Positions 1,456-47,216 of a DNA stretch of 64,000 nucleotides are shown piece by piece. The DNA lies in contig JHVA01000001.1 of assembly GCA_000688615.1 (NCBI GenBank), forward strand, positions 1,488,001-1,552,000. The letters run 5' to 3'. A program made the translations under genes and the position numbers. The stretch's first letter is position 1; every line of letters starts with the position of its first letter. Below the pieces are notes generated by a model, which was given only the letters and a program-made list of their open reading frames with translations, was not told the origin of the DNA and made no database searches. This DNA comes from Acidobacteriaceae bacterium KBS 146 (lineage in GTDB: Bacteria; Acidobacteriota; Terriglobia; Terriglobales; Acidobacteriaceae).

Positions 1456-4128
1456 CTACTCGTTTCGCAGCGCAACCATGGGATTGATCCTTGACGCTCG
1501 CCGCGCCGGAAGATATCCCGCCAGCAGCGCCACGGCGACCAGCAGCACGGGCATCCCCGCGAAGGTGGGCGGATCCGTCGGAGCGGTTCCGAACAGCAGG
1601 GACGAGATTAGATGGGCCATGGCTATGGACAACACGGCGCCGGCCGCAATCCCGACAGCCGCCATCTGCAGCGTATTTCTGATTACGCCTATCTGAACAT
1701 GGCCCGGGGATGCCCCCAACGCCATACGGATTCCGATCTCCTGAGTCCGGCGCGTAACAGAATAAGAGATCACGCCGTAGATGCCGAGTGAGGCCAGCAG
1801 CAGCCCCAATCCGGCAAATGTGCCGACCAAAAGGACAAAGAACTGACGCGGCGAAGTAGCATGGTCAACGACGCGCTGCATCGGGCGGAACTCAACCGAG
1901 GGTTGATTAGGATTGATCTCCCGCAGCGTGCGCAATACCGTGCCGGAGAGTTGTGCCGGAGGTAGCTTCGTTCGTACCACCAGGTAGGCCCCGTCCGGGC
2001 CCCAGTCGCTCTCTGTCATTGGCAGGTACATCTGCCAGCCCGTCTGCCCTTCAATGTTGGTGTCGCGCACGTCGTCGATGACGCCGATTACGCGAACATC
2101 TTTTTTGCCTAAGACCGCGATCTTGCCGATCGGATCCTCATCGGGCCAAAGTCCCTTTGCTGCCTTCCGGTTCAGGATGATGACGCCTTCGCTCTTATCG
2201 CTATCGGACCACGCAAAATCTCTCCCTCGCAGCCGCATGCCCATCGCCTTCATGTACCCGGGCGAGACGATGTAGACGAACGCTCCCGGAACCTCTCCGG
2301 GCTTGTAGTTCTTGCCCTTGACCCGCGGCCCTCCCCAGCCCCGGTTGCGATCGAGCGGCAGGTTATCCGAGAATCCAACCGCATCGATGCCAGGAATCGC
2401 GCTCACGCGTCGCGCCACGTTCTGCAGGATCGCGCTGCGGCGATCCGTGCTGTTGCCGTCGTCGTAGTCCAGCTTCATCGCCGCTGCGGTCGCAGGCTGG
2501 AATCCGAGATCCACATCCAGCACCTTCAGAAAGCTACGCAGCAACAGGCCTGCCCCGATCAAAAGCACACAGGCAAGCGCAACCTCAGAGACCACCAGCA
2601 CCGTACGCATGGCCTCGTGCTTTCGGCCTTCGGTCGCGCCGTGACCACCGTCTTTGAGCGCCTCCTGCACGTTGGCCCGCGAGGCTCTCACTCCGGGCAG
2701 CAGACCAAAGAGCACCGATGTCGAGACGGTGATTGCCAACGTCCACAGCAGCGCGGCTGTATCCAGTCGCACGCTGTTCAGCAGAGGTAGTGCGATCGAA
2801 CCTTGGTGGGCGAGATACCGGAGCAACGCATAGGAGAGAGCCAGCCCAAAAGCGGCGCCCGCAACGGCCAGGACAAGGCTCTCCGTCAGCAACTGGCGAA
2901 TCAGTCTTCCGCGCCCCGCTCCCAGCGCGCTGCGTAGGGCGAACTCCTTACTGCGAGCCGCCGCACGCGCCAACAGAAGATTCGAGAGATTCACGCAAAC
3001 AATCAGCAGGATCAGCCCGACCGCCGACCACAGCACTACCAGAGAGCGCCTCAGCTTTCCGCTGACGTAGTCCTTCAGAGGAATTGGCCAGCCGGTATAG
3101 TTCCCCTTCGAGTCGGGATACTTCTTGCCCCAATAAAACTGGGGAAACAGCGTCTTTGCTTCGGCTCGCGCTTGCTCAACCGTAGCCCCCGGCTTCAATC
3201 TGCCGATGAGTGCCAGCGTGTTTCCTTCGTAGCGGATCTCGTCCATCATCACCGGAGTCAGAATGTCCACCTTTGATCCGGGTGAAAAAGCTGCCCCAAA
3301 ATCGAAGCTCTCAGGCAATACCCCCACGACAGTCACCGGATGGTTATCGAGAGTAATCACCTTGCCCACGATGGAGCGGTCACCGCTGAACTGCCTTTGC
3401 CAGAAAGGGTGCGCCAGAAGAACGGCCGCGGGTCCACCTTTTCTTGACTCATCCTCGGTAAACAACCGGCCCAACTGCGGCTCCACTCCGAGGACGTGAA
3501 AGAAATTTCCTGCGACCATGATGCCGGTGACCGGCTTTGGATCCCCGCGACCGGTCAGTTTGTAGTTGTCCGTCGTCGAGAAGGCAAAGTATCCCGTCAC
3601 ATCCTCGAAGGACCGGTTCATCGAGCGAAGATCTTCATAGGCATCCACCGAATACGTCGAATCCGACAGACCGTTCGGATGTTCCGGCGCAATCCAGACA
3701 AGGCGCGACGGATCGTAAAACGGCAGCGGCCGCAGCAGAATCGTGTTCACCACGCTGAACACCACCACATTCGCTCCAATGCCCAGCGCCAGAATCAGAA
3801 TCGCAACCGTCGCAAATCCCCGGTCGCGCGCCAGTGTCCGCACGGTATAGCGGAGATCCTGCAGCACCGTATCCAGCCACGGCAGCCCACGAGACTCCCG
3901 TTGCCGCTCCTTGGCCTGCTCCACGCCTCCGAAGCGCACCAGAGCCCGCCGCCTGGCCTCCTCCGGGCTCAGCCCGCGGCGCACGTTTTCTTCGGTCGCC
4001 ATTGCGATGTGAGCAGCGACTTCCTCTTCCAGATCCCTATCCATCGAGTCCCTGCGAAAGAACGCTGCCACTCTGGCCTGGGTACGGCGCAGAGCATCCA
4101 TCCACGATCCTCTTCTTTTGTGAGTCAT
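1456..4128 (-). CDS. Duplicated MacB/FtsX-like ABC permease (acidobacterial orphan permease family)
   Basis: An 890-residue membrane protein with two MacB-type halves. Residues about 1-95 are a soluble prefix common in these permeases (MDRDLEEEVAAHIAMATEENVRRG, then LPWLDTVLQDLRYTVRTLARD). The first helix is near 107-130, a periplasmic MacB-like domain follows to about 360, and an FtsX block lies at about 365-480 (SKEFALRSALGAGRGRLIRQ). A second periplasmic domain and a second FtsX block come near 770-885 (RRTQEIGIRMALGASPG; ending PARRASRINPMVALRNE). No ATPase gene is adjacent, hence 'orphan'. The ATG overlaps the PadR stop as ATGA, so the two are translationally coupled. The substrate is unknown; efflux of peptides, lipids or drugs is an inference from MacB. 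Confidence 0.93.
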   Translation of the reverse strand: MTHKRRGSWMDALRRTQARVAAFFRRDSMDRDLEEEVAAHIAMATEENVRRGLSPEEARRRALVRFGGVEQAKERQRESRGLPWLDTVLQDLRYTVRTLARDRGFATVAILILALGIGANVVVFSVVNTILLRPLPFYDPSRLVWIAPEHPNGLSDSTYSVDAYEDLRSMNRSFEDVTGYFAFSTTDNYKLTGRGDPKPVTGIMVAGNFFHVLGVEPQLGRLFTEDESRKGGPAAVLLAHPFWQRQFSGDRSIVGKVITLDNHPVTVVGVLPESFDFGAAFSPGSKVDILTPVMMDEIRYEGNTLALIGRLKPGATVEQARAEAKTLFPQFYWGKKYPDSKGNYTGWPIPLKDYVSGKLRRSLVVLWSAVGLILLIVCVNLSNLLLARAAARSKEFALRSALGAGRGRLIRQLLTESLVLAVAGAAFGLALSYALLRYLAHQGSIALPLLNSVRLDTAALLWTLAITVSTSVLFGLLPGVRASRANVQEALKDGGHGATEGRKHEAMRTVLVVSEVALACVLLIGAGLLLRSFLKVLDVDLGFQPATAAAMKLDYDDGNSTDRRSAILQNVARRVSAIPGIDAVGFSDNLPLDRNRGWGGPRVKGKNYKPGEVPGAFVYIVSPGYMKAMGMRLRGRDFAWSDSDKSEGVIILNRKAAKGLWPDEDPIGKIAVLGKKDVRVIGVIDDVRDTNIEGQTGWQMYLPMTESDWGPDGAYLVVRTKLPPAQLSGTVLRTLREINPNQPSVEFRPMQRVVDHATSPRQFFVLLVGTFAGLGLLLASLGIYGVISYSVTRRTQEIGIRMALGASPGHVQIGVIRNTLQMAAVGIAAGAVLSIAMAHLISSLLFGTAPTDPPTFAGMPVLLVAVALLAGYLPARRASRINPMVALRNE

Positions 4129-39520: not shown

Positions 39521-40666
39521 TCAAAAAGATCGCGCCCGTAACAGCCCAAGGTCCACTGCCGGAACCTCTATTTGTAGTCGGAATCTTCCCGCAGGCTCGT
39601 ATTCTGAAAATGTCATCTCACTGCCCGGACACACCTTCCCGAGCTGGAGCTCCTCCTGAACCACAGGGTCTACCGTACTCCCCCCGGGCAGCTGTCTCAG
39701 ATTGGCGTAGACCGGCCCGCCCACTTTCCTAGTGTCTTCGCATGCGCCCTGATCCGCGGGAGCGCTAATCCTCGTCGGGACATCCACCCTGTACGCATAC
39801 CGGCACACAGGCAAACCAGCTCCCACAAGAACACATCGTCCGTTGCTCGGAGCATTGAAGCTTTTGTTTACCGTAATCACCTCCGGCATCTTCGGCCGCA
39901 GCCTCTCCCCGACCAGCTCCATCCGCAACTGAGCCTTACGTCCGTCCACTTGCGTCAGGATCTCCTGCGGCACCACGAACGAAAGCGCGTCTTCATTCAG
40001 GATTGCCGTCTGCCACGGCGAAACATAGCGCTTCCCAGCTGCTTCGATCACATACGACACATTCGTGTCATGCAGCTTATAACCCGCGTTTAGCCCCTCC
40101 AGCCTCACTCGAACCTTCAGCTCCACCAGTCCTCGTGACGCATTCATCTCTTCCTTGCGTTCCGTGTAAGGCACCGGTCCCGGCAAAACCACCAGCCGCA
40201 GGCCCGCGTCTCGCGATAAGGGATAGTGGCTCCGGATCAGGGCACGGATTGGAGCGCCGAGGTGCGTCCCGGAAAATCCATAGAACAACACCAGAAACAG
40301 TCCCGCAACCGCTCCAAACGCTACCTGCGATCGCCTCGTTTGCCGCCTCGAATACTGATACACCACCACCCCGATCAGCAGCCCGGCAAACAGCACCGCC
40401 ATCGCCTCGAACGAATACGGAGGCGGCATCCGCATATCAGACGAGCGGAACACGGTACTCAGCACCGTCACCCAGATCGCTATGATCCCAATTAGCACCA
40501 GAAACGCCTCGATCACCGTCGTCGTTACGGCTCCGATCAGCACAAAGGGTAACCACGCGTCCAACGCGATCATCGTCAGGCAGCGCATCATCCCTGTGGG
40601 CGAGCTTAGTAATCCGAGCCCGGCTCGCGACAGCAGCCACCACTGCATCAGCACAAATGGAATCAC
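39521..40666 (-). CDS. Membrane protein of unknown function, probably 5'-truncated
   Basis: 381 residues. The first 150 contain about four membrane helices (VLMQWWLLSRAGLGLL, WLPFVLIGAVTTTVIEAFLVLIGIIA, AMAVLFAGLLIGVVVYQY, VAFGAVAGLFLVLFYGF). The remainder is a soluble, beta-rich domain, probably extracytoplasmic, with paired cysteines. The only start is a GTG with no good ribosome site. The hydrophobic frame continues upstream through it (VITNISGGVVVIP) to a stop near 40695, exactly where an inserted segment begins. I infer that the native 5' end was lost to that insertion. The family is not recognised. Confidence 0.6.
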   Translation of the reverse strand: MIPFVLMQWWLLSRAGLGLLSSPTGMMRCLTMIALDAWLPFVLIGAVTTTVIEAFLVLIGIIAIWVTVLSTVFRSSDMRMPPPYSFEAMAVLFAGLLIGVVVYQYSRRQTRRSQVAFGAVAGLFLVLFYGFSGTHLGAPIRALIRSHYPLSRDAGLRLVVLPGPVPYTERKEEMNASRGLVELKVRVRLEGLNAGYKLHDTNVSYVIEAAGKRYVSPWQTAILNEDALSFVVPQEILTQVDGRKAQLRMELVGERLRPKMPEVITVNKSFNAPSNGRCVLVGAGLPVCRYAYRVDVPTRISAPADQGACEDTRKVGGPVYANLRQLPGGSTVDPVVQEELQLGKVCPGSEMTFSEYEPAGRFRLQIEVPAVDLGLLRARSF

Positions 40667-40698
40667 GACAACCCCACCAGAAATATTGGTAATAACTC

Positions 40699-40714
40699 AC
40701 TTGACGAATCAAGT
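40699..40714. promoter_or_regulatory. Palindrome at the edge of the inserted segment
   Basis: ACTTGA-CGAA-TCAAGT is a perfect 6-bp inverted repeat with a 4-nt centre. It lies 41 bp before the DUF3800 start and directly beside the point where the truncated membrane gene stops matching. It may be a regulatory site for the DUF3800 pair or part of an element end. Confidence 0.4.
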
Positions 40715-40754
40715 AGCATAGGTCATCTATCTCTCAGAAAAATGGGGGGATGCG

Positions 40755-41618
40755 ATGATTAAATCCGTTCGCATAGCGGAGGCTGCGGTAGTGCTCAGCG
40801 TGTTCGGTGATGAGAGTTCGGACGAGACAAAGCGGCGCGTGTTTGCCGTTGCAGGCGTGATTGGAACGGAACCCATGTGGGAAGCGCTGGAGGCGGCATG
40901 GGTTGATCGAACTGGAGGCATACCTTTCCATGCCAACCATTGCGAGAGTGATTGGGGAGACTACAAAAATACTCCGCATGCAGAAAACCAACTTCTATAT
41001 CGAGACCTAACAACGCTACTGGCGAAAAGCGACTTATCTGGCTGGGGATTTGCGATTGATCTAATAGCTCAGAAAAAAGTTTTTCCCGACGCTCCTGAAA
41101 TTGCTTATTACAAAGGATTTTCGGAAGTTGTGTCTTCCATGCTTGTTTTCGCTGCTAGTTGCAATCAGCCCGTCAAATTCACTTTTGATAGGCGGGCAGA
41201 AAGCGAATACAACTCCGCCTATCTCTACAAGATTTATCGTGAGCGACCCGAAAACAGGGTTGATATGTTTAGGAATATCACTTTCGCATGTTCACGCGAG
41301 GAGCCTAGAGTTCAAGTGGCGGATCTATGGGCCAGAGAAACTATGAAAGCGGTAGATAACCTGATTGGACCGAAGAAAAGACCTCCTAGGAAATCATGGG
41401 AGGCTTTAGTGGGAACTAACCGCTTTAAGGCCGATGCGATTAGCGAAGAATGGTTCTATTCCCTAAAGATACAGATGACGGAAATTCAGAAAAAATTTGG
41501 AATGGAGCCTACTACATACGGGCGTTGGCTCAACGAAAACGGGTTATCCAACAACGTGACTAACGTGTTCAGATTTTTAGGACGCTCATATAACGGAGAG
41601 GGACCGGAAATCATATGA
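40755..41618 (+). CDS. DUF3800 domain protein
   Basis: A 287-residue soluble protein of the DUF3800 family, recognised by the opening acidic motif VFGDESSDETKRRVFAVAGVI, the later FTFDRRAESEYNSAY and EEPRVQVADLWARETMKA. The spaced acidic residues and fold suggest an RNase H-like nuclease, but no activity is established. DUF3800 genes often travel with mobile elements and defence islands. Base composition is clearly more AT-rich than the neighbours, which fits transfer. A GGGGGA precedes the ATG. The stop overlaps the start of a 47-residue gene as ATGA. Confidence 0.85.
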   Translation: MIKSVRIAEAAVVLSVFGDESSDETKRRVFAVAGVIGTEPMWEALEAAWVDRTGGIPFHANHCESDWGDYKNTPHAENQLLYRDLTTLLAKSDLSGWGFAIDLIAQKKVFPDAPEIAYYKGFSEVVSSMLVFAASCNQPVKFTFDRRAESEYNSAYLYKIYRERPENRVDMFRNITFACSREEPRVQVADLWARETMKAVDNLIGPKKRPPRKSWEALVGTNRFKADAISEEWFYSLKIQMTEIQKKFGMEPTTYGRWLNENGLSNNVTNVFRFLGRSYNGEGPEII

Positions 41619-41758
41619 CGGAAAAACAAAATTACGATCAAGCGATGAAGAAGATACTCTCCGTATCTAAGCAAGAGTTACAACGCAGGATTGAGGAAGA
41701 AAAAAAGATCAAACATCCGTCTAAACCTTCCTCTTCCCACGACCCTGCCTCTTCCTAG
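41615..41758 (+). CDS. 47-residue partner of DUF3800, function unknown
   Basis: The product begins MTEKQNYDQAMKKILSVSKQ and continues with a charged helix (ELQRRIEEEKKIKHPSKP) and a Ser-rich tail. It is translationally coupled to the DUF3800 gene through ATGA, which supports a two-protein unit. Its stop codon overlaps the stop of the convergent transposase remnant by two bases. It is probably a small helical binding partner or antidote; this is inference from the arrangement only. Confidence 0.65.
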   Translation: MTEKQNYDQAMKKILSVSKQELQRRIEEEKKIKHPSKPSSSHDPASS

Positions 41759-42000
41759 AAGGCCGTTTCTCCCACCTTGCCGGTGACCTCAGCAAAGGTT
41801 AATCGCTTGCCTGCGATCTGCGATAAGACTTTCTTGAAACGTTTTTCATCGGACTTGTTATGACGAATGTTGAAACGAAAAACCTGTTCATCGATGAACG
41901 GTTCACCGCCACATAGGTACCGCTAAGGTTGCGTTTCATCAAGCCCCAGAAATCCTCCAGAGAGTTAGTGTGAACCTGACCGTTCACAGCGCTGCCGCAC
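41755..42000 (-). pseudogene. IS1595-type (ISXO2-like) transposase, C-terminal remnant
   Basis: The minus strand encodes VNGQVHTNSLEDFWGLMKRN and LSGTYVAV, then after a frameshift and a small deletion DEQVFRFNIRHNKSDEKRFK, KVLSQIAGKRLTFAEVTGKV and GETAF before a TAG at 41755. This is the conserved end of IS1595-family transposases, including the HTN...FW..LKR motif around the last catalytic acidic residue. The whole N-terminal two-thirds is missing and the sequence runs directly into the GntR gene. It cannot make an active enzyme. Confidence 0.8.
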
Positions 42001-42426
42001 CTCAATTGCCGCGCCTTCTCTCTTCATCGGGTCTCTTCCCTCAACTGCCATCGAAAGTCGCTCCCAGTGACGCGCGATCGCCGCCGTCACCTCCTCCAGG
42101 CCCACCGACAGCCGCTTGGCCTCTACGACCAGCTCCTCGATCTGCCGGTTCAAAAGCTCCGTGCGCTCCGCTGCCGTCGCTCCGGGAGGCGCCGCCACCA
42201 CCGTGCCGATTCCCGGGCGCGACTCCAGCAGTCCATCGGCAATCAGCTTCCCAATCACCTTGTGCGCCGTATTTGGGTTGATCTTCAGCTCCCGCGACAG
42301 CGTACGCACCGAAGGAAAGGGGTCGCCCGCCCGTAACTGCCCGGCCACAATCGCACGCGTCGCCGCATAGACCGCCTGCTCATAGATCGGGACACCGGGC
42401 CGTGGAATCAGTCGAAAAGGGATCAC
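41965..42426 (-). CDS. GntR-family (YtrA-type) regulator with a disturbed 3' end
   Basis: About 153 residues. The winged helix is typical: GVPIYEQAVYAATRAIVAGQLRAGDPFPSVRTLSRELKINPNTAHKVIGKLIADGLLESRPGIGTVVA (residues about 10-78). A short C-terminal helix region of the YtrA type follows. The last 16-25 residues (EGAAIEVRQRCERSGSH) read into the transposase remnant, so the native end is lost. The preceding MKREGAAIEVR would suit the start of an ABC ATPase gene, the usual neighbour of YtrA-type regulators. I prefer the GTG at 42426 over the ATG at 42453, because the palindromic operator occupies the codons between. Confidence 0.8.
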   Translation of the reverse strand: MIPFRLIPRPGVPIYEQAVYAATRAIVAGQLRAGDPFPSVRTLSRELKINPNTAHKVIGKLIADGLLESRPGIGTVVAAPPGATAAERTELLNRQIEELVVEAKRLSVGLEEVTAAIARHWERLSMAVEGRDPMKREGAAIEVRQRCERSGSH

Positions 42427-42428
42427 GC

Positions 42429-42451
42429 GTGTACTACTACACCTAGTACAC
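42429..42451 (-). promoter_or_regulatory. GntR operator over the promoter
   Basis: GTGTACTA-N7-TAGTACAC is a perfect 8-bp inverted repeat immediately before the GTG start. On the minus strand TTGTGC, 16 nt and TGTAGT could serve as -35 and -10, which would put the -10 inside the operator and the transcript start at or next to the GTG (leaderless). Confidence 0.7.
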
Positions 42452-42453
42452 AT

Positions 42454-42789
42454 TCAAGCACAAGTACTTTTTTTATCCGTTCTTATCGCTGTCAAGAGCC
42501 GCCCAGAATGGAGAACCCATCAAACGGAAACTATTCAACTACTTAGCGGTCAACTCCAAAGTGCCGATCAATTATGGTCATCTCGCTACAATGGAAGCAG
42601 CATCGGGAATTCGAGACAAAAAAACCGCCGGAGCAGGTAGTTTTCTTATCAACCATATTGTTTTGAAGACTTTACTGAAAATCATCAGCAATTTCCCTGT
42701 AAAATCAAGACTTTAACTGGACTCGAATTTAGAAGGCCAAGCCTAAGTCGCATCGATAGAATACTTTGCGCAAAAAGGGGGGGGAGGGG
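42454..42789. other. AT-rich intergenic region
   Basis: No gene is supported. One plus-strand frame stays open for about 90 codons (EPIKRKLFNYLAVNSKVP in its middle) but has no start codon or ribosome site upstream. A G-run of eight followed by AGGGG (42777-42789) lies next to the 3' end of the transsulfuration gene. Confidence 0.4.
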
Positions 42790-44935: not shown

Positions 44936-46123
44936 TCAGGGTCGCGTTGCCGCGTTGTCTGCTCCTCGTGGGTTGGACGCGGCCTGCCCTTCGGAAGCAG
45001 CATCGGACGCTATGCGCGGATAGTAGCCGGTACGCGTACGAACCGACAACTTTCCCATTCCCTTGGCTTTGGCATCGACATGGACCTGCCGATAGCCCCC
45101 CAGCGTTGGCGACTTCGTGGAGTGATACGCGATGGTGTATTGGGTCCGGATATCCTGGGCCACCTGCGCTGCGATCGTATCGACCTCTTTGAGTGATCTC
45201 GGAAAATAGGCCGCTCCTCCGGTTTGCTCACTCAATGTCTCCAACACCCGCCTTGCATGGCGCGACTCCCGCTTGTCCGTGTCCTGGCCGAAAAGCAGAC
45301 CGACGGAGTAGATCACAGGGCCATCGAGGTCCTGAATCCGTCGAATAGCCTGTTCGAGGGTCGCACTGGATGCATTGTCTTCGCCGTCTGTAACGACCAG
45401 TAGAACCTGCTTGGGATGCTTGGCATTCTTTGTCAGATAATCCGCCGAGGCTACAAGCGCGTCATAGACCGCCGTTCCTCCGCTGGATTTGATGTAGCTC
45501 AATCCATCGCGCAGCTTATCGATATTATTGGTGAAGTCTGTATCGATGAACGCCTCCCACGAGAAGTCCACGACAAAGGCCTCGTCTTCTTTATTCGATA
45601 GTTTGATTAGATCGAGAGCGGCTTGTTCAACGGCGGCGCGCTTGTCATACATCGACCCGGAGCTATCTATCAAGATTCCGAGCGAGACCGGAAGGTCCTC
45701 GTGTCGAAAAGAAGCAATTGTCTGGGGAACCCCGTCCTCGAAGACGTGGAAGTCATCTTTTTGAAGCGTCAGGACAGATCTTCCGTCCGAATCCAGAACC
45801 GTGGCATTCAGACGAACCTCATAGGCCTCCGTCCTGAGCGTGTATTTTCCGCCTGCGCCCCGCTGAATTGGGCCAGCGGGCCCTTCCGGCCCCTGAGTCC
45901 CTCGCTTCTGGGAAGGAGCCGTATCGGGATCAGGCGAAGCCACAGGATCACGATCGACTGTAAGCGAGGGCTGAACGGACGGTTGCGCTGCGCTCCGCTG
46001 CGTTCCAGAAGCGGGCTGGGTCGTCGCCGCTCCCTGGCTCACCAGGCCGTTTGCCCCTGTGGGCCCTGTCAGCAACAGAGCCGTCGCAGCGGCATACGGT
46101 AAAACTTTACTCCGAAGGTGCAT
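44936..46123 (-). CDS. VWFA-related protein of the acidobacterial type (second of two)
   Basis: A 395-residue exported protein. A signal peptide (about residues 1-27) is followed by a Pro/Gln/Ser-rich spacer. The shared entry VRLNATVLDSDGRSVLTLQKDDFHVFEDGVPQ leads into a von Willebrand A domain with the MIDAS motif LIDSSGSM, VVTDGEDNASSATLEQ and the closing DIRTQYTIAYHSTKSPTLGGYRQVHVDAKAKGM. This set defines the family first described from Acidobacteria. It probably binds metal-dependent ligands in the periplasm; the specific role is unknown. It overlaps the first VWA gene by 17 bp. Confidence 0.9.
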   Translation of the reverse strand: MHLRSKVLPYAAATALLLTGPTGANGLVSQGAATTQPASGTQRSAAQPSVQPSLTVDRDPVASPDPDTAPSQKRGTQGPEGPAGPIQRGAGGKYTLRTEAYEVRLNATVLDSDGRSVLTLQKDDFHVFEDGVPQTIASFRHEDLPVSLGILIDSSGSMYDKRAAVEQAALDLIKLSNKEDEAFVVDFSWEAFIDTDFTNNIDKLRDGLSYIKSSGGTAVYDALVASADYLTKNAKHPKQVLLVVTDGEDNASSATLEQAIRRIQDLDGPVIYSVGLLFGQDTDKRESRHARRVLETLSEQTGGAAYFPRSLKEVDTIAAQVAQDIRTQYTIAYHSTKSPTLGGYRQVHVDAKAKGMGKLSVRTRTGYYPRIASDAASEGQAASNPRGADNAATRP

Positions 46124-47216
46124 AGTACCCCTGGCGATTGTGCACCGTCAGTGGGGGAAGCCCCGGCGGCGGCACCAGTCTTATCTTCAATTTACGCCAG
46201 TTCCCATCCTTCTTCATATCCGATGGCCGATAACCTAGAACGTACTCGTTTCTCAACTCTGCACTGATGCGGGTTGCAATATCGCCCAGGTCAGCAATAT
46301 CGCCCACCCGAAACATCCTTCCTCCCGTCATATCGCAGATATCACTCAATAACACAGGACCAAGCTGTTCTTCCTGGGTGGGGGCGTATTGGTCAAAGAT
46401 GCCGATCGAATAGATCTGAACATCGCTCTCGCGAACAGCACGGCGCAGCTCGCCCTCGGTGTAACGGCTGCGATTGTCCCCACCGTCCGAAATGATGAGC
46501 AAAGCCTTCCGTTCGTACTTCGCATCTCGAAGCTTCGTGATGCCGAGATACGCGGCGTCAATCAATGCCGTCCGGTTCTCCGGCTTCAACATCACCATTC
46601 GCGCCTCGACGTCATCGATATTCGAGGTATAGTCGACGATTACCGCAGGCCGGTCATTGAATCCGACCACGAAAAACTCGTCCGCCGGATTCGAAGTTCG
46701 CAGGAATTCGCTCAGGGCACGGCGGGCACGATTGAACTTCGAGTTCATGCTTCCGCTCAGATCAAAAACGATCCCGATCGTTACCGGAGCATCCTCAGTC
46801 GAGAAGCTCTTGATGAGCTGACCTACGTTGTTGTCGTAGATCTCAAAATTCTCTTTCTCCAGCCCGGTGACGAGACGGTTCATAGGATCGGTAACGGTCG
46901 CCGGCACGAGTACCAGATTCACATCCACCCGTAACCGGGAATCGCGCCGCGAAGTTCCGCTGGCTGCAACGTTGCCTGCCCCCTCGATCACCGGACGCGA
47001 GTCCTCAGGAGACTTCGGCGGAGGTGGAGGTGGCTGGGTATGAATCTCCCCAAGCGGATTTTCCTGTGCAGAAGCCGTCACTCCGACGGCTCCGCCCAGC
47101 ACCAACGCAAGCAGAACTACTCCCGATACCGAGATATCTCTAAATAGCTGAAACGCTCGCCCCGGCAACTCGGCAAATCCGAAGCGATAACCGAACGCTG
47201 TTTCTTCGTCCCGCAT
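46107..47216 (-). CDS. VWFA-related protein of the acidobacterial type (first of two)
   Basis: A 369-residue protein, paralogous to the next gene. After a charged 25-residue head, one hydrophobic segment (ISVSGVVLLALVLGGAVGVTASAQ) acts as signal or anchor. A proline run (HTQPPPPPPKSPED) precedes the entry motif DVNLVLVPATVTDPMNRLVTGLEKENFEIYDN. The VWA domain has MIDAS GIVFDLSGSM and LLIISDGGDNRSRY, and closes with NEYVLGYRPSDMKKDGNWRKLKIRL. It heads a four-gene minus-strand run ending with the two sulfur genes. Confidence 0.9.
   Translation of the reverse strand: MRDEETAFGYRFGFAELPGRAFQLFRDISVSGVVLLALVLGGAVGVTASAQENPLGEIHTQPPPPPPKSPEDSRPVIEGAGNVAASGTSRRDSRLRVDVNLVLVPATVTDPMNRLVTGLEKENFEIYDNNVGQLIKSFSTEDAPVTIGIVFDLSGSMNSKFNRARRALSEFLRTSNPADEFFVVGFNDRPAVIVDYTSNIDDVEARMVMLKPENRTALIDAAYLGITKLRDAKYERKALLIISDGGDNRSRYTEGELRRAVRESDVQIYSIGIFDQYAPTQEEQLGPVLLSDICDMTGGRMFRVGDIADLGDIATRISAELRNEYVLGYRPSDMKKDGNWRKLKIRLVPPPGLPPLTVHNRQGYYAPSE

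Follow-up and report, generated by a model that had tools for sequence, protein, structure and literature searches.

A probable remnant of a passenger-carrying IS1595 transposon, with a DUF3800-like gene and a small coupled gene, in a GntR-led operon of an Acidobacteriaceae bacterium

The DNA analyzed here, a stretch of 64,000 nucleotides from the genome of Acidobacteriaceae bacterium KBS 146 (the window), holds a disrupted GntR-led operon whose present form is probably explained by the insertion of an IS1595 passenger transposon and a later deletion. On this explanation, a DUF3800-like protein of 287 amino acids would be interchangeable cargo of the transposon, and a protein of 47 amino acids, encoded by the adjoining gene, would belong to the backbone of the element. 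The small gene is read as backbone and the large gene as exchangeable because, across related elements, the distances between small proteins follow those between transposases and not those between DUF3800-like proteins.

Results

The passenger remnant was located at positions 40688-41987 of the window, and its features, with those of the disrupted operon, are collected in Table 1. An earlier note, made from the sequence alone, had described a DUF3800-like gene and a gene for a 47-residue protein joined by ATGA, and both reading frames were recovered as described, the two overlapping by that tetranucleotide. The convergence of this pair, stop on stop, with the end of a transposase gene was likewise borne out, since the TAG of the small frame (41756-41758) overlaps the TAG of the transposase end (41755-41757, minus strand). 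The insert is indeed AT-rich, with a G+C content of 0.44 (41000-41749) against 0.59 (40000-40499) and 0.61 (42000-42499) at its sides. The transposase end, which the note had called degraded and of IS1595 type, was aligned to the IS1595 transposase of locus L052, and the assignment of the remnant to IS1595 rests on this alignment; the match runs from codon 250 to the end of the gene and is interrupted by two gaps, of 1 base and of 15 bases, so that the remnant is frameshifted. Rfam gave no match in the window between 39500 and 43000 at an E-value of 5, and none at the gathering score in 18 loci. Further along the window (44936-47216), two adjoining long minus-strand reading frames of 395 and 369 amino acids are alike in build and may be von Willebrand A-type paralogues.

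Table 1. Features of the disrupted operon and of the element remnant (positions in the window)
Feature	Position	Strand	Remark
Permease of GntR-ABC operon, 5' part missing	39521-40687	-	Truncated near codon 94 as counted in the intact L024 homologue
gaaatatt, presumed target-site octamer	40680-40687		Adjoins the inverted repeat; presumed because relatives show 8-bp duplications
Cargo-side terminal inverted repeat GGTAATAACTCACTTGACGAATCAAGT	40688-40714	+	Motif shared with both ends of complete relatives
DUF3800-like cargo gene, 287 amino acids	40755-41618	+	Predicted RNase HII-like fold; D19, E20, D146, D190 present
Gene for small protein, 47 amino acids	41615-41758	+	ATGA-coupled; small-protein family of this IS1595 clade
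3' remnant of IS1595 transposase gene	41755-41987	-	Codon 250 to end; frameshifted
Deletion junction and first ~11 codons of lost ABC ATPase gene (MKREGAAIEVR)	41988-42027	-	Resembles the L024 ATPase start
GntR-family regulator of disrupted operon	42028-42453	-	PF00392, E 1e-11

The original arrangement of the operon was sought in related genomes, as the note had proposed, and two genomes of the same genus, G021 (locus L024) and G028 (locus L025), were found to keep GntR and then the permease with a gene-sized space between them. In L024 an ATPase gene was read in that space, overlapping the end of the GntR gene. The GntR protein is 77% identical between the window and these two genomes and the permease about 40%, its local alignment beginning at residue 103 of the L024 frame. 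On the left side of the insert, the permease frame of the window meets no stop before the terminal inverted repeat at 40688, and so the frame of the membrane gene does run unbroken into the element, as had been claimed; the cut lies, however, at 40687/40688, where the inverted repeat, which is intact, starts, and not near 40695. On the right side, the GntR frame continues into MKREGAAIEVR, and the resemblance of this peptide to the first codons of an ABC ATPase gene was confirmed by L024, in which the ATPase gene following GntR starts MTALSPAVEVR. The note had proposed one insertion or rearrangement that removed the ATPase gene and truncated both flanks. The loss of the ATPase gene and of the permease 5' end stands; its attribution to a single event does not, an insertion with a later deletion giving a better fit. 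No related genome was found in which the gene pair forms an old, vertically inherited unit at the GntR-permease locus.

In the history that we favor, an IS1595 passenger transposon, in which the transposase gene and a convergent cargo unit occupied opposite ends, would have entered the permease gene of a GntR-ATPase-permease operon at 40687/40688. A later single deletion, spanning the interval between transposase codon 249 and approximately codon 11 of the ATPase gene, would then have taken the 5' part of the transposase gene, one inverted end, the 5' end of the permease gene and nearly all of the ATPase gene, and would have left a remnant unable to move itself with its cargo unit intact. The partner copy of the gaaatatt octamer belongs on the far side of the element, which is deleted in the window. 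The ends, the remnant and the relatives of the element are observed directly, and insertion followed by deletion is the simplest history that accommodates them, the order of the two events being presumed. Alternatively, the left side could be the product of a deletion that began exactly at the inverted end. When the genome itself was searched, the tail sequence of the element matched only itself, with no other copy, and the transposase found no match at E 1e-60; the element in the window is therefore most likely dead.

Inverted ends starting with GG and an 8-bp target duplication are typical of the IS1595 family. The GG end is present at the left end of the window element (40688) and at both ends of complete relatives, and a search with the terminal inverted repeat of the window gave a match of 30 bases at 93% in genome G031. 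This genome contains a complete element (L051) in which GGTAGTAATATAGTTGACGAATCAAGAT and its inverted partner enclose 2631 bases; the octamer AATAAAGT flanks the element on both sides, an 8/8 target duplication. Its transposase of 320 amino acids matched NF033547 (E 3.7e-50) and PF12762 (E 1.4e-34); the transposase of L052 also matched PF12762 (E 5.9e-39). In the L051 element, too, a DUF3800-like gene is linked through ATGA to a gene for a small protein, here of 43 amino acids and 65% identical to the 47-residue protein, and one extra reading frame is present. The statement in the earlier note that IS1595 elements can carry passenger genes thus applies here, L051 being complete with the same gene pair. 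Passengers unrelated to transposition lie between the inverted ends in L051 and in other complete elements, which is the mark of a transporter IS, and the window keeps one of these ends.

It could be that the DUF3800-like and small genes are an old resident unit and that an IS landed beside them, and genome G015 does hold a 53-56% identical DUF3800-like gene, directly downstream of a gene that is presumably holA-like, in a stretch where both a small gene and the TTGACGAATCAA motif are missing. The gene pair of the window, however, lies inside the element end, since the left inverted repeat directly adjoins the permease frame; the occurrence of the same pair in L051 within a complete element with its duplication contradicts residence, and the small protein is patchy, being found in 51 of the 150 genomes of the family. 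We consider a resident unit extremely improbable.

The L051 transposase served as query in a survey of how such elements are distributed, and among 150 genomes of the family 53 gave a match at E 1e-60. Sixty loci (L121-L180) were fetched by transposase alone and added to 18 earlier loci, and 77 of these 78 loci gave a transposase. The loci L051-L061 had been found by a DNA query that included the end of the small gene, and L080-L089 had been chosen because they hold the small protein. A complete element, defined by inverted ends and a duplication of at least 7/8, was present in 54 of the 77 transposase loci (8/8 in 52), with the GG feature of the ends holding by construction, as the script demanded GG/CC ends. 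The gene calls of the survey are longest-ORF guesses, some of them surely wrong. The complete elements are 1727-4584 bases long, and as a bare IS with this transposase is estimated to be near 1.05 kb, each complete element carries extra DNA. Among the 60 loci selected by transposase, 39 were complete, and the small protein was detected in 33 of these 39 and in 47 of the 60 overall.

Two further observations concern the elements themselves. At L082 (541-2448), inverted ends and an 8/8 duplication enclose a transposase that is broken, while the RelA/SpoT-type cargo gene (PDC-S33) is intact, and this is another dead element keeping its cargo. The inner part of the inverted repeat, after CTTGAC, varies between elements (41 complete elements among L051-L180); it follows the N-terminal third of the transposase (r 0.42) and does not clearly follow the middle and C-terminal thirds (p 0.14 and 0.07). 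The conserved TTGAC in both element ends has, to our eyes, the look of a -35 box.

The cargo was examined by scanning 74 reading frames that were picked by hand, some of them from elements whose ends were not found, and DUF3800 was the commonest Pfam family among them (12 of 74). The 25 of 36 families listed also include RelA_SpoT (three cases), IrrE-like peptidase (two) and DUF4145 (two), and single cases of AIPR, SocA/Panacea, AbiEii-like AAA, GmrSD, Schlafen AlbA, PIN and HNH. For comparison, 74 of 199 flank reading frames were chosen by hand, and DUF3800 was not among the 25 of 172 Pfam families listed for these, a selection that could hide a family with one member or two weak ones; the difference from the cargo set (Fisher p 0.00015) is valid only if the flank count is zero. 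With our own profile, a DUF3800-like reading frame was found in 16 of the 54 complete elements, most of these being rows of that profile, and none was found in their 220,602 flanking bases. The DUF3800 carriers did not cluster on the transposase (p 0.40).

Some of the cargo genes gave near full-length matches to PADLOC models, namely AbiU (L147, E 1.5e-139), PDC-S33 (L082 and L175) and AbiLi (L087). A general enrichment of PADLOC models in cargo is not claimed, as flank reading frames were also hit at E 1e-3 (58 families, compared with 151 for cargo), and neither window protein matched any PADLOC defense model at E 1. One complete 3.5-kb element, L158, holds an Argonaute-like cargo gene (2105-3709) that runs in the same direction as the transposase and matches the pAgo model in part (E 1.6e-45, residues 63-445 of 534).

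The 287-residue protein of the window scored 15.3 bits against Pfam DUF3800 (PF12686), below the cut-off of 21 (E 0.034), and its 53% identical relative in L032 scored 28.7 bits, above the cut-off; the window protein is for this reason called DUF3800-like. An AlphaFold2 model built with 21 sequences had a pLDDT of 81.9, and the best solved match to it was RNase HII (1eke_B; Z 13.2, rmsd 3.3, 172 residues aligned), with other type 2 RNases H ranking next. Residues D19 and D190 are invariant in the 21 sequences, and the window protein also has E20 and D146. The D19-E20 pair would correspond to the DE of RNase HII, and the acidic positions are presumably catalytic. Judged by the model, the protein most likely functions as a nuclease of RNase H fold, with RNA or RNA/DNA hybrids as its substrate, and it is presumably kept because it defends the host or stabilizes the element. 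A genome scan with the DUF3800-like protein returned two distant partial hits only.

A profile of the small protein identified 64 reading frames in the 77 loci, and in complete-element loci 47 of 47 lay inside the element. In 42 of the 64, which lie on the strand opposite to the transposase, the end falls in the interval from 4 bases ahead of the transposase stop to 11 bases past it, and this is the stop-on-stop geometry of the window. The remaining small genes lie further off, often still directly behind a cargo gene, and in L160 and L158 the small gene stands behind cargo running in the direction of the transposase. In the 150 genomes the profile found 91 places (E 1e-5), of which 63 had a transposase no more than 4 kb away and 49 had one no more than 100 bases away (0.11 expected); 30 of these 63 were seeds of the profile, and when the seeds, a list compiled by hand, were left out, 33 of 60 places were near a transposase against 0.07 expected. 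Outside the family, genome G323, of another class, has a transposase, a DUF3800-like gene and the small protein, the last two overlapping, and genome G358, of another family, has the small protein beside a gene judged by eye to be AIPR-like and a transposase.

The other 28 of the 91 places had no close transposase within 4 kb. Eighteen such places were inspected; six hold pieces of a transposase, and the others showed none in the stretch fetched, several of these stretches running out at a contig end. A DUF3800-like gene immediately precedes the small gene in L193 and L194, as does a gene that by eye is AIPR-like in L198, with no transposase detected in any of the three, indicating that the small gene can persist with cargo alone. 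Conversely, the small protein went undetected in seven of the 54 complete elements, the DUF3800 carrier L159 among them.

A search of plasmids with either window protein or another small protein gave no match. Plasmid IS1595 elements of Methylobacterium and Roseomonas contain a PIN/VapC gene and then a protein of 61-62 amino acids, which was considered as a family member and set aside, there being no match to the small-protein profile at E 1. Two alphaproteobacterial plasmid loci, L182 (pMOC1) and L183 (p1318-1), have the order transposase, unknown gene, PIN/VapC gene and 61-62-residue protein, which is like the gene order of L160, but their small proteins likewise give no match to the profile.

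The relationship of the small protein to its neighbors was studied by comparing distance matrices. In a Mantel test, the distances among small proteins were correlated with those among transposases (r 0.41, n=56, p 0.0005). Among the DUF3800 carriers (n=17) the small protein followed the transposase (r 0.52) and not DUF3800 (r -0.16), and the same was observed for the 11 elements in which the small and DUF3800-like genes touch (r 0.48 and -0.14, respectively), with no single element driving the difference. The DUF3800 alignment is itself informative, since its two halves agree at r 0.72. The two halves of the transposase agree at r 0.24 only, and it may be that the transposase is a mosaic, or that its N-terminal third is simply the best record of element ancestry. 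In 41 complete elements the small-protein signal resides in this N-terminal third (r 0.45; partial r 0.42) and is missing from the C-terminal third, which adjoins the small gene (partial r -0.05), so plain physical linkage is no explanation. The correlation of the small protein with the inner inverted repeat disappeared once the transposase was removed (partial r -0.01).

One interpretation of the gene pair is that the DUF3800-like and 47-residue proteins form a specific toxin-antitoxin or defense pair for which IS1595 is only the vehicle. The ATGA coupling in the window and in L051 is in keeping with this, and the outcome that the earlier note would have counted against its reading, the small protein never occurring next to DUF3800, was not obtained, the two being neighbors in other genomes: 13 of 31 long DUF3800-like hits have it, 12 at a distance of no more than 25 bases and one as a fusion, and L193 and L194 have such pairs with no transposase detected. 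The natural fusion (L128, 3419-4492; 357 amino acids) joins a DUF3800-like protein to a C-terminal small domain, modeled as two helices with a pLDDT of 85-93 at residues 311-340, and suggests contact between the two. The small family is, however, also coupled to unrelated cargo, at -4 in each of L147 (AbiU), L145, L144 and L138, and at gap 0 from a gene judged by eye to be PIN-like in L160; its distances ignore those of DUF3800, and the seven complete elements lacking the small gene include a DUF3800 carrier. The specificity of a type II antitoxin is thus not seen, the family being common to unrelated cargo and showing no covariation with DUF3800, although the L128 fusion points the opposite way. 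A dedicated pair is on this evidence unlikely. The note had offered the pair as IS1595 cargo or as a defense or addiction module; its place as an IS1595 passenger holds, and the small protein as DUF3800's own addiction partner is disfavored by the unrelated cargo neighbors and by distances that follow the transposase.

From these sequence comparisons, the reading that fits best is that the gene for the 47-residue protein belongs to the transposon backbone as its second gene, and not that the protein is an antitoxin of the DUF3800-like protein. It would be translated by coupling to the upstream cargo gene and, to judge by the covariation, most likely works with the transposase, for instance with an N-terminal part that reads the element ends. 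The L128 fusion and the transposase-free pairs of L193, L194 and L198 speak against this backbone role.

The DUF3800-like protein could, for its part, be an accessory of transposition, for example by clearing hybrid intermediates, instead of cargo that benefits the host. Its predicted RNase H fold and the rank of DUF3800 as commonest cargo family would agree with such a task. Yet 38 of the 54 complete elements have no DUF3800-like reading frame, many of them carrying other cargo, and the DUF3800 distances do not track those of the transposase (r 0.09, p 0.18), and an accessory role is accordingly rated as very unlikely.

Discussion

Members of the IS1595 family that carry passenger genes are described as transporter IS (tIS) in passages of PMC3129680 and PMC7986276, both of which cite Siguier 2009, and include tISCpe8 and MTnSag1/tISSag10 (tISCpe8 and MTnSag1 in a passage of PMC5704250). 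As far as these passages describe them, tISCpe8 and MTnSag1 resemble the elements studied here in combining an IS1595-type DDE transposase with passengers in one IS. In contrast, all 54 complete elements of the present survey have room for cargo, and the cargo changes while the small-protein family mostly stays. The cargo is here partly defense- or toxin-like, in place of drug-resistance or conjugation genes.

A second parallel is offered by Tn3 transposons, in which toxin-antitoxin pairs are part of the transposition module according to PMC7157771. The likeness lies in counting small accessory genes in the transposition module, and PIN and HEPN are named in section titles of that paper. The elements studied here belong to another transposon family, however, and have a constant protein of ~40-70 amino acids beside variable larger genes instead of toxin-antitoxin pairs.

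DUF3800 proteins have also been placed beside Cas12a2 and in types VI-F and V-A2 (passages of PMC10910872 and PMC12669027); they were assigned an RNase H fold by AlphaFold work in the former, and the latter counts DUF3800 among the accessory nucleases of some VI-F and V-A2 loci. The window protein shares with these, as there described, the RNase H fold and a likely nuclease activity, but it is an IS passenger with no Rfam match nearby.

The literature searched, which lay largely outside subscription papers and gives a weak absence, contained no description of the small protein or of the cargo pattern. Passenger-carrying IS1595 elements are known, and a mostly constant small protein with changing cargo is a regularity that we have not seen described.

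A wider proposal is offered tentatively, as an idea more doubtful than probable. This IS1595 clade might consist of a transposase and a basic helical protein of ~40-70 amino acids that together take up and express interchangeable single defense effectors, and the small protein, translated behind the cargo, might link cargo expression to the N-terminal, end-reading activity of the transposase. Such elements would act as a shuttle redistributing defense genes among bacteria.

In the 54 complete elements with duplications, cargo is the rule and is exchanged, with the small second gene mostly kept, and several of the cargo genes have matches among known or candidate defense genes. Should the small protein act in transposition or in the control of cargo, it would provide a direct handle on how single-gene defense is spread by a simple IS, and many anonymous proteins of ~50 amino acids in these genomes would gain a place.
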